Assembly (NCBI RefSeq): GCF_004803505.1 | Contig: NZ_SSWH01000008.1 | Span: 1-64,000 of the forward strand | Direction of reading: 5' to 3' | DNA length: 64,000 nt | From: Arthrobacter echini | Lineage (GTDB): Bacteria > Actinomycetota > Actinomycetes > Actinomycetales > Micrococcaceae | Shown here: positions 54,167 to 57,996 of the stretch, in pieces | Numbering within the stretch: position 1 is the first letter of the stretch | How the letters are laid out: the number at the start of each line of letters is the position of its first letter | Notes under the pieces: generated by a model | Told to the model about the DNA's origin: nothing | What the model saw: the letters and a program-made list of their open reading frames with translations, nothing else | Database searches by the model: none | Position numbers and translations under genes: made by a program

Positions 54167-55309
54167 CTATGCCTGCACACTCACCGGATCGGGGCGGAGC
54201 GCGGACCGCGCCGAATCGATGGTGGCCTGGCCGAGGACGCGCGTGCCCTGGTAGAGCACCACCGTCTGCCCGGGCGCCACACCGCGCATCGGCTCCACGA
54301 GGCGCACCACGAGCTGCTGCGCGCCGTCGTCGTCCACCTCGACGCTCGCGCGGGCGTCCACGGGATCGCCGTGCGCCCTCACCTGGGCCGTGCAGTCGAA
54401 CTCCTCACCCGAGCGCACCTCGCTGATGGGCACACCTGCCCAGGACACCTTGATGCCGCGCAGCTCGTCGATGGCGAGCAACTGCTCCGGGCCCACGACC
54501 ACCTCGTTCTGCTTGGGCCGGATCTCGAGCACGAAGCGCGGCTTCCCATCCGCTGCAGGCGTGCCGAGCTTGAGACCGCGTCGCTGCCCCACCGTGAAGG
54601 CGTTCGCGCCGGGATGGCTGCCGATGCGCTCGCCGTCGACGTCGACGACGTCCCCCTCGGTCAGCTCGATGCGCTCCTCGAGCCAGCCGCGCGTGTCGCC
54701 GTCGGGGATGAAGCAGATGTCATGGCTGTCGGGCTTGTTCGCGACGGAGAGTCCGCGGCGCTCGGCCTCGGCGCGGACCTCGGCCTTCGAGGGCGTCGCG
54801 GCCAGCGGGAACATGGAGTGCTCGAGCTGCTCGTGCGTGAGCACCCCGAGCACGTAGGACTGGTCCTTCGCCCAGTCCGCCGCCCGGTGGAGCTCAGGAT
54901 TGCCGTCGGCGTCCCTGAGGACCGTCGCGTAGTGTCCGGTGCAGACGGCGTCGAAGCCCAGCGCGAGTGCCTTCTCCAGCAGCGCAGCGAACTTGATGCG
55001 CTCGTTGCAGCGCATGCACGGATTGGGGGTACGCCCCGCTGCGTACTCGGCGATGAAGTCGTCGACGACATCCTCCTTGAAGCGCTCCGAGAAGTCCCAC
55101 ACGTAGTAGGGAATGCCCAGGATGTCGCAGGCGCGCCAGGCGTCCCGGGAGTCCTCGATGGTGCAGCATCCCCGGCTGCCGGTGCGCAGCGTGCCGGGCA
55201 TGCGGGACAGCGCCAGGTGCACGCCGACGACGTCGTGCCCCGCGTCCACGGCACGTGCCGCCGCCACGGCGGAATCGACGCCGCCACTCATCGCTGCCAG
55301 TACCCTCAT
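54167..55309 (-). CDS. mnmA: tRNA 2-thiouridylase MnmA
   Basis: A 380-residue enzyme that adds sulfur to U34 of Lys, Glu and Gln tRNAs. The ATP pyrophosphatase loop is SGGVDS (8-13), and the catalytic cysteines are C98 (PNPCMRC) and C199 (HDICFIP). The start ATG 55309 overlaps the iscS stop as ATGA, so the sulfur donor and user are made together. Confidence 0.95.
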
Positions 55310-56532
55310 GATGAAGAACCCGTTCCTGCCGTCCGGATGGTCGAAGCGTGCCCGGCCATACCGGCCGCACGCGCGCGGCGATACGCCTCGCCGATGGCGC
55401 CCACCACGGCGGCGACGTCGTCGTCCGTGGAGGTGTGTCCGAGACTGAAGCGCTGGGCACCGCGCGCCTCGTCCTCGCTCAGGCCCATGGCCAGCAGCAC
55501 GTGGGACGGGCGCGGGACCCCGGCGGAGCAGGCCGAGCCCGTGGAGGACTCGATGCCGGCCAGATCGAGGAGGAACAGGAGGGAGTCCCCCTCGCACCCC
55601 GGGAAGGTGAAGTGCGCGTTGCCGGGAAGCCTGCTCCACCGGGCCGCCGGGTGTCCTACCCCGCGCAGCACCGCCTCCGGTACTTCGCGACAGACGCCCT
55701 CGATCAGTCGGTCGCGGAGCGCGGCGACCCGCGGTGCCTCGACGTCGAGGCGCGCGACGGCGTCCTCCGCGGCCGCGGCGAAGGCGGCGATACCGGCGCT
55801 GTCGAGGGTACCTGATCTGATATCGCGCTCCTGGCCTCCCCCGTGCTGCACGGGGGTCAGGGTGACGCCACGACCCACCAGCAGCGCGCCGACCCCCACC
55901 GGACCGCCGATCTTGTGTGCGGTGACGGCCATCGTCGCGAGCCCGGAGTCCGCGAAGGAGACCGGGATCGAACCGAAGGCCTGCACGGCGTCACTGTGGA
56001 CCGGGACACCGTAGCGGGCGGCTTCTGCCACGATCTCACCGATCGGCTGGACTGTTCCCACCTCGTTGTTCGCCCACATCACCGTTACCAGCGCCGTCCT
56101 GTCGGTGCCGTCCGCGAGCGCCGCACGGAGTGCATCGAGGGACACGAGACCTGTCTCGTCGACGGGGAGCCAGAGCACCTCGGCGCCCTCGTGCCGCTCC
56201 AGCCATTCGACGGCGTCCTGCACCGCGTGATGTTCGACAGTGCTGCAGATGATCCGGGTGTGCCGTGCGTCGGCGGACCGCCGCGCCCAGTACAGGCCCT
56301 TGACGGCGAGATTGTCGGCCTCGGTCCCGCCGGAGGTGAAGACGACCTCCGAGGCGTGGGCTCCTGCGGCAGCCGCAACGCGTTCCCGGGCGTCCTCCAC
56401 CGAGCGGCGGGCACGACGGCCCGAGCCGTGGAGGGAGGACGGATTCCCGCCCCGGCTGATTTCCTGGGTGAGTGCGGCGAGCGCCGGCGCCGAGATCGGC
56501 GTGGTCGCCGCGTGGTCGACATACACGGGCAT
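55306..56532 (-). CDS. iscS: cysteine desulfurase (IscS/NifS)
   Basis: A 408-residue PLP enzyme that takes sulfur from cysteine. The PLP lysine is K207 (TAHKIGG), and the persulfide cysteine C335 lies in [10 protein letters not shown]. The length and active-site loop fit the IscS-like class used for tRNA thiolation. It is the first gene of iscS-mnmA; its upstream gap contains the 61-bp repeat array. Confidence 0.95.
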
Positions 56533-56588
56533 GGGTCGATTCTACGGGTGCCACGCCGTCGCACCGATTTCGCTGGGTGATGTGCGCC

Positions 56589-57035
56589 GGGAACGACGCG
56601 ACGCTCCACCCCGCACCGCGTTCGCTCCCACTACTCAAGCGCACCTGGTGGGAACGGTCACGCAATCCCACTCCTCGACGCCGATCACTGGGAACCACGC
56701 GATGTTCGACCCCGCTCGGCGCTCACTCCCACTCCTCAGGTCCTTCCAGCGGGAACGACGCCGTGCCCGAAGCCGCTCGGTGCTCGTTCCCACTTCTCGG
56801 GCCCCTCCAACGGGAACGACGCAGTGCCCGAACCCGCAGGGCGCTCACTCCCACCCCCCGACGCCGACCACCGGGAACGACGCCGTACCAAGCTCGGCAC
56901 AGCCCTTCGCTCCCACGCCCCAAGCCCCTCCGGTGGGAACGATCACTCCCTCCCACTGCCCGACGCCGACCACCGGGAACGACGCGAAGCTCCACCCCGC
57001 ACAGCGCCCGCTCCCAGGCGCCCGCTCCCAGGCGC
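56589..57035. repeat. tandem array of about 61-bp imperfect units
   Basis: The core GGGAAC begins at 56589, 56650, 56690, 56751, 56812, 56873, 56935 and 56975. The steps are 61, 40, 61, 61, 61, 62 and 40 bp. Units share a GGGAACGACGC start and a CTCCCAC-type motif about 20-35 bp later; the last unit ends in a doubled GCTCCCAGGCGC. Adjacent units can fold: 56909-56916 pairs with 56933-56940 at 7 of 8 positions. It fills most of the 584-bp gap between iscS and the RibD-like gene. No gene is supported in it. Confidence 0.85.
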
Positions 57036-57087: not shown

Positions 57088-57120
57088 ATGGGCGATATGA
57101 GCGAATCGACGGCCCCATGA
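57088..57120 (+). CDS. possible 10-residue leader peptide
   Basis: ATG 57088 opens a short frame, MGDMSESTAP, whose TGA overlaps the RibD-like start as ATGA. It has no clear ribosome-binding site. It may be a leader that couples translation, or chance. Confidence 0.25.
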   Translation: MGDMSESTAP

Positions 57121-57860
57121 TCTCCGCCCTCATTCCCGTCTCTGAGGCCGTGGTGGACGACGACGCACTACACAGCATCTACGCGTACCCGTCCATGGAC
57201 CGACCCTACGTACGCTTCAACTTCATTTCCGCGGCCGACGGCGCAGCCACCACCGGCGGTCTCTCCGCAGGGCTCGGGAACGACGGCGACAAACGCATCT
57301 TCGCCGTCGTGCGACGCCTCGCCGACGTGGTGCTCGTCGGGGCCGGAACCGTCCGCGCCGAAGGCTACGAGGGGCCGCTCGTGGACGAGGACGCGCAGTC
57401 CTGGCGGACAGGGAACGGGCAGGAGGCCCACCCTGCGATAGCGCTCATCTCGGGCAGCCTCGACCTGGACCCGTCCGGCGGATTCTTCGCGAACGCCCCC
57501 GTCCGCCCGCTCATCCTCACGAGCCGCAGTGCACCGGCGGACAGGCGTGGGGCCCTGGAAGCCGTGGCCGACGTCGTCGACTGCGGTGAGGACACCGTCG
57601 ATCCCTCCGCTGTGCTCACCGAACTCGGCCGCCGCGGACTGCTGAAGGTCCTCTGCGAGGGCGGTCCCTCCGTCCTGGGCGCCTTTCAACGCTCGGGAGC
57701 CGTGGACGAGCTGTGCCTGTCGCTCAGCCCCCTGCTGGCAGGCGGTGACGGACCACGGATCGCCATGGGCGACGGTCCGGGGCAGCCGATCCCGCTGAGG
57801 CTCGCGTCGCTGCTCACGGAGGACTCCGCGCTCTACACGCTGTACCGCGTCCGGCGCTGA
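57117..57860 (+). CDS. RibD C-terminal/pyrimidine reductase family protein
   Basis: A 247-residue reductase with the dihydrofolate-reductase-like fold of the RibD C-terminal domain. Marks are RFNFISAADGAAT near residue 35, an NADPH-binding GAGTVRAEGY, and LCEGGPSVLGAF. It lacks the deaminase domain of full RibD, like mycobacterial Rv2671. The true substrate may be a riboflavin precursor or a folate. The start ATG 57117 has no strong ribosome-binding site and overlaps the small leader frame. Confidence 0.8.
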   Translation: MISALIPVSEAVVDDDALHSIYAYPSMDRPYVRFNFISAADGAATTGGLSAGLGNDGDKRIFAVVRRLADVVLVGAGTVRAEGYEGPLVDEDAQSWRTGNGQEAHPAIALISGSLDLDPSGGFFANAPVRPLILTSRSAPADRRGALEAVADVVDCGEDTVDPSAVLTELGRRGLLKVLCEGGPSVLGAFQRSGAVDELCLSLSPLLAGGDGPRIAMGDGPGQPIPLRLASLLTEDSALYTLYRVRR

Positions 57861-57914: not shown

Positions 57915-57962
57915 TTCACCCAGCTCTTCACCCAACGCACGACAGCCACCGCACGACAGCCA
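57915..57962 (+). repeat. two nested direct repeats before the dnaJ-like gene
   Basis: TTCACCCA occurs at 57915 and 57927 (12-bp step), followed by CGCACGACAGCCA at 57936 and 57950 (14-bp step). They lie 35-80 bp upstream of the start at 57997. They may be binding sites or replication slippage. Confidence 0.45.
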
Positions 57963-57996
57963 ATACAGGACACCCGATGCAGGAAAGGCCCGATTG

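Follow-up and report, generated by a model that had tools for sequence, protein, structure and literature searches.

An array of inverted half-sites beside iscS in Arthrobacter echini as a candidate cognate-site cluster of an AbiEi-Vsr-like nuclease

The DNA analysed here is a 64-kb window of the Arthrobacter echini chromosome, part of a 3.18-Mb draft genome (G000) in 41 contigs. An array of short repeats lies in the window between two divergent genes, one encoding an IscS-type protein that is 90% identical to its counterpart in A. echini P9 and the other encoding a RibD-like protein. A preliminary description of this region had reported a 61-bp repeat in which GGGAAC-type cores recur at steps of 61, 40, 61, 61, 61, 62, and 40 bp. 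We reproduced these steps exactly, and both TRF and a repeat finder recovered the array. The intergenic placement was likewise borne out, and the array appears to be non-coding, as had been proposed. Although the periodicity is exact, an inverted pair of half-sites describes the unit better than a direct repeat.

The half-sites have an approximate consensus of CGANCA-GTGGGA-NCGR and alternate between strands. Each inverted pair consists of a minus-strand half-site followed by a plus-strand half-site, and the full pair approximates TCGNTCCCAC-N16-GTGGGANCGA. Exactly 16 bp separate TCCCAC from GTGGGA within a pair, and the resulting TCCC-N20-GGGA geometry is identical in every minus-to-plus pair of the window array. 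Cores equivalent to GTGGGA start at 56587, 56648, 56688, 56749, 56810, 56871, 56933, and 56973 on the plus strand; those on the minus strand are at 56626, 56666, 56727, 56788, 56849, 56911, 56951, 57012, and 57026. The array contains seven TCCC-N20-GGGA pairs versus four across the remainder of the window, and no 470-bp segment among 5000 drawn at random from the window held more than one. Two tandem repeats with a 14-bp period are also present, one at the array's right edge (57004-57035) and one just past the RibD-like gene (57932-57963). The combined length of repeat and spacer in type I-E CRISPR systems is 61 bp. A CRISPR array was nonetheless rejected because the 61-bp unit is repeated along its whole length (~75% identity) and unique spacers are absent.

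Table 1. Coordinates of the array, its half-sites, the flanking genes, and the nuclease gene (window positions unless a contig is given; "." denotes no strand).
Feature	Coordinates	Strand	Remarks
Whole array	56587..57031	.	Seven inverted pairs of half-sites with a lone half-site at either end; flanked by the divergent iscS and RibD-like genes
Lone half-site CCGGGAACGA, left end	56587..56596	+	
Pair 1	56622..56657; core 56626-56653	.	TCCCAC-N16-GTGGGA, exact pattern match
Pair 2	56662..56697; core 56666-56693	.	40-bp step after pair 1
Pair 3	56723..56758; core 56727-56754	.	61-bp step
Pair 4	56784..56819; core 56788-56815	.	61-bp step
Pair 5	56845..56880; core 56849-56876	.	61-bp step
Pair 6	56907..56942; core 56911-56938	.	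TCCCAC-N16-GTGGGA, exact pattern match; 62-bp step
Pair 7	56947..56982; core 56951-56978	.	40-bp step
Lone half-site CTGGGAGCGG, right end	57008-57017	-	Second copy at 57022-57031, from a 14-bp tandem duplication
Cysteine desulfurase-like gene (Aminotran_5, iscS-type)	55306..56532	-	Start codon ~55 bp from first half-site
Gene for RibD_C-domain protein	57117..57860	+	Predicted start ~85 bp from last half-site
Nuclease gene, ~270 aa, intact	G000:C11:26935-27744		Between paaZ and tetR/paaR-like gene

Copies of the element occur throughout the genome. The pattern TCCCAC-N16-GTGGGA is found 49 times in G000 compared with once for a reversed control pattern, and when the gap was allowed to range from 4 to 34 bases, 49 of 58 matches had a gap of 16. 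So far, 18 arrays at 14 intergenic loci have been found, a count that covers arrays of at least three half-sites in fetched loci and includes two entries at contig ends that are probably parts of a single array; unit counts rest on a strict motif in draft genomes, and the array search was not exhaustive. The window array is a member of a genome-wide and genus-wide family, which disposes of the alternative that it is a local accident. Every one of the 18 arrays is intergenic: seven lie between convergent genes, seven between tandem genes, and four, including that of the window, between divergent genes. They tend to lie near stop codons; start codons are farther away, often by ~90 bp or more. 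Flanking genes, among them groEL, ackA (acetate kinase), and genes for an aspartokinase, a glycosyltransferase, a Crp-like regulator, and a cyclase, share no function. A promoter-type regulon was rejected because the arrays occupy convergent, tandem, and divergent gaps beside unrelated genes. Rfam gave nothing inside the window array or the arrays of the 14 loci, a tRNA scan detected none in the arrays, and array DNA had no match in plasmid and phage collections, in line with the initial statement that no known element is matched. Contigs C5 and C39 end within arrays that share units (L044 1-628 and L045 6278-6548), and this assembly break was probably caused by the array repeat. A tandem glycine riboswitch lies close to another array locus (L043 3262-3460).

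The spacing of half-sites is constrained both within and between pairs. Across the arrays of G000 and the related genomes G011 and G001, the minus-to-plus distance is constant in 226 of ~240 close pairs. The plus-to-minus distance in these genomes falls into four classes ~10.5-11 bp apart with nothing in between. Since the classes lie one helical turn apart, neighboring pairs are in helical register, an arrangement that is expected for cooperative binding of protein to DNA and unexpected for RNA hairpins. The periodicity yielded a Rayleigh statistic of 161 with a best period of 10.9 bp when 188 distinct linkers were each counted once, and 79 when each locus counted once per distance; these values are inflated by shared ancestry of linkers, but the empty intervals stay nonetheless.

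The array had also been suggested to fold into a row of hairpins, a proposal that our results do not support. For neither the outer bases nor the 16-bp spacer did the two arms of one pair agree more closely than arms taken from pairs at different loci (three genomes, with 49, 46, and 15 units). Values for the outer 10 positions within pairs versus between pairs of different loci were 0.39 versus 0.41, 0.40 versus 0.43, and 0.41 versus 0.46 in three species. The plus strand of the window array folds little better than shuffled sequences (z = -1.4); the G-rich minus strand reaches z = -4.0, though its pairing is long-range. The lack of arm co-variation and the weak plus-strand fold suggest that the symmetry of the pair reflects a DNA half-site present in two copies. 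RNA hairpins were rejected in the window's clade on the basis of the negative co-variation test. In genus g41 (G147 and G176), the outer arms do co-vary, with 101 matches versus 77.6 expected (p = 5e-5), which indicates that the ancestral or sister form of the element may be a true palindrome; hairpins may matter in that genus. At g41 loci L166-L175 and L185, the outer arms of the palindrome vary between loci and pair within a locus, unlike those of Arthrobacter.

Comparison with relatives revealed that array positions persist while array sequences turn over. For 13 of the 14 loci in G000, the orthologous position in G011 and/or G001 also has an array; flanks of these loci are 77-94% identical, whereas the arrays themselves have diverged. 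Each array is internally homogenized to its own sequence. The half-site core, spacer, and helical phase are kept in arrays that have otherwise turned over beyond alignment. Copy number at the iscS site varies, as the preliminary description had thought worth checking: G000 contains 7 pairs, A. echini P9 contains 10, and G011 contains 16. No array was found at that place in A. ruber, A. agilis, or other relatives. Outside the A. echini clade, a shorter form of the element occurs in other Arthrobacter and in a second genus; it consists of one or two 28-bp palindromes with a 40-41-bp period and is typically found on the flanks of a ~270-aa nuclease gene. Such short elements occupy the position of the ackA array in another genus (L173 versus L047) and the L065 position in G010. 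The distribution of the element across genomes is patchy.

A candidate for the protein partner of this family is encoded at another locus of G000, where an intact gene is flanked by two arrays of 15 and 22 half-sites. Its neighbors encode an aldehyde dehydrogenase-MaoC protein (paaZ) and a TetR regulator (paaR). Across species, the paaZ-paaR gap is either empty (28-220 bp) or ~1.0-1.2 kb in length; the insert consists of the ~270-aa gene and one or two 28-bp palindromes with a 40-41-bp period, usually on both sides. The protein combines PF13338 (AbiEi_4 winged-helix), which scored above cut-off in 9 of 10 proteins, with PF18741 (MTES_1575/DUF559-type, Vsr-like EDxHD), and E173, D200, H217, and D226 show complete or near-complete conservation. 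The best PDB match of the profile is weak (3r3p, 'mobile intron protein', E = 0.1) and is followed by AbiEi-type proteins (E = 0.43); we take 3r3p to be I-Bth0305I, a Vsr-like EDxHD homing endonuclease. A dN/dS of 0.07-0.09 among G000, G011, and G001 indicates that the gene is under purifying selection. The gene and its palindromes are found at other loci in G010, G227, G014, and G147 (genus g41), and more than one copy of the gene is present in G017 and G229, which indicates that it has moved or been duplicated. The same architecture of gene and palindromes exists in another genus (G147, L172). Plasmid and phage collections yielded only distant matches to the protein (29-33% identity). G000 also encodes a second AbiEi-nuclease paralogue that is ~35% identical (G000:C41:105489-106298). 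A DnaA-box-like sequence, TT(A/G/T)TCCACAT, lies at a nearly fixed distance of 48-56 bp upstream of the nuclease start at 15 of 21 loci (L246-L261 and L265). In G003, G012, G018, and G019 (L263-L266), the gene is split or frameshifted and the palindromes are still present; a broken gene with surviving palindromes resembles the life cycle of homing genes.

The element accompanies this nuclease subfamily in particular. A gene was scored as flanked if a unit with two or fewer mismatches lay no more than 400 bp away on either side. By this rule, 17 of 20 orthologues were flanked compared with none of nine paralogues of ~35% identity, all from genomes other than G000 (p = 2e-5). At least two units were present in 12 of the 16 genomes that carry the gene versus 1 of 8 without it (p = 0.008). 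Both p-values are optimistic because the species are related, and the association derives mainly from the paaZ/paaR site, with further loci in G010, G227, G014, and G147. Among the three unflanked orthologues, those of G162 and G021 are bordered by long palindromes of other sequence, with the same variant at both gene ends, and that of G005 has no palindromes on its flanks. The G162-type variant was detected only in genomes that carry the nuclease gene, either intact or broken. G008 contains palindromes and lacks the nuclease gene.

The closest parallel is the REPIN/RAYT system, in which dispersed palindromes, some in ordered clusters, coexist with a single gene flanked by the element (PMC3116915). 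The family described here similarly comprises tens of short intergenic palindromes, with doublets and tandem clusters of regular order, and a single-copy nuclease-type gene whose own flanks carry the element. The associated gene, however, encodes PF13338 plus PF18741 rather than a Y1 tyrosine transposase. Of 20 genomes searched for the RAYT/IS200-type Y1_Tnp (PF01797), 19 had none, among them G000, G001, G011, and G010, and none was found in G147. Because this transposase is the defining feature of REPIN/RAYT, the array is not a member of that system despite its presumably similar mode of working. The consensus of aligned units also differs from REPIN/RAYT in having no visible GTAG/CGTC tag, and sites in the window's clade are helically phased DNA half-sites instead of hairpins. 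BIME-2 elements of E. coli are arrays in which REP sequences alternate in orientation. Like BIME-2, the arrays contain motifs in alternating orientation with few allowed spacings, are intergenic, and were very probably amplified in place; they differ in motif and in lying also between divergent genes.

Operators of AbiEi proteins provide a precedent for the half-sites. In S. agalactiae, binding of AbiEi to a pair of inverted repeats separated by 3 bp is cooperative and bends the DNA, while M. tuberculosis Rv2827c binds four repeats that correspond to two inverted pairs in tandem (PMC7319586). The 16-bp spacer of the array differs from the arrangement of AbiEi half-sites, which are 23 bp in length and 3 bp apart (PMC7319586), but the footprints are compatible. 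Both systems feature the same Pfam winged-helix family and inverted repeats that are paired near a dyad. Unlike the AbiE type IV toxin-antitoxin system, the protein ends in a nuclease domain and its candidate sites are dispersed through the genome, beyond the promoter. No AbiEii (DUF1814) toxin gene adjoins the nuclease gene at paaZ/paaR, and an AbiE toxin-antitoxin operon was rejected for lack of a toxin gene. With I-Bth0305I as its weak best PDB match and with conserved E, D, H, and D residues, the protein may have a similar nuclease domain; in addition, its gene fills a gap that is unoccupied in related species. Unlike that homing endonuclease, it is free-standing (outside any intron or intein), has palindromic flanks, and contains a winged-helix domain.

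On the strength of these sequence comparisons, the window array is probably a cluster of cognate sites within a dispersed family of intergenic palindromes whose parent would be the single chromosomal AbiEi-Vsr-like nuclease gene. The array might instead comprise operator or architectural sites of a different DNA-binding protein, such as a nucleoid organizer or regulator, with the nuclease gene merely situated between two of them. The fixed spacer and helical phasing imply protein binding whichever protein is involved, and this alternative also accords with array positions conserved between species and flanking genes of no common function. We judge it unlikely given that the element accompanies the nuclease subfamily, and not its paralogues, across species, loci, and even a second genus, and given that both gene ends share one palindrome variant in G162 and G021. 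Somewhat less likely still is that the arrays are neutral debris, namely, old remnants of the palindromic ends of a mobile gene, which grow through slippage and unequal crossing-over and have no present role. Homogenization within each array, as expected from tandem turnover, the range of 7, 10, and 16 copies at one site, and the patchy distribution fit such an origin; core, spacer, and helical phase that outlast the loss of alignable sequence, together with positions that persist across species, do not.

RNA hairpins that terminate transcripts or stabilize mRNAs, in the manner of REP/BIME hairpins, constitute the least probable explanation, one to which we give very little credence. The co-varying arms in genus g41 and the frequent proximity of arrays to stop codons would suit this role. 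It is opposed by the lack of co-variation in the window's own clade, the near-random fold of the plus strand, and the location of 4 of the 18 arrays, that of the window among them, between divergent genes.

In the reading of the array as a cluster of nuclease cognate sites, each inverted pair would be occupied by two winged-helix domains, similar to AbiEi at its own operator; by analogy with that family, binding of half-sites in pairs by this domain is quite likely. Neighboring pairs, judging from their register, would be bound cooperatively along a single helix face, which we also consider likely, though slightly less so. It is conceivable that the nuclease spread or maintained solitary elements through cutting and repair, as thought for RAYT with REPINs, but the production of solitary copies by this route is a suggestion from analogy that we regard as doubtful. 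Much firmer is the last expansion: in the A. echini clade, solitary elements were very probably amplified in place into long arrays, which would now be retained as bound intergenic blocks. The best reading is that the array would work like REP/REPIN/BIME repeats yet belong to an unrelated enzyme. It is tempting to speculate, and we do so tentatively, that a RAYT/REPIN-like system arose independently on an AbiEi-winged-helix plus Vsr-like nuclease that recognizes, spreads, and keeps its own palindromes, with helically phased cooperative arrays as the extreme form.

The known example of a nuclease-like chromosomal gene that endures together with a population of tiny palindromes is RAYT/REPIN, and in the open-access literature we found no description of an AbiEi/Vsr-like (DUF559, MTES_1575) nuclease paired with palindromes. 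The interpretation offered here yields predictions on binding, spacing, and cutting for arrays that annotation leaves blank. If correct, it would give a role to AbiEi-plus-Vsr-like proteins, which are currently annotated merely as antitoxin-like or unknown. It would also place a second, unrelated enzyme in a RAYT/REPIN-type arrangement, which would mean that this arrangement evolves repeatedly.
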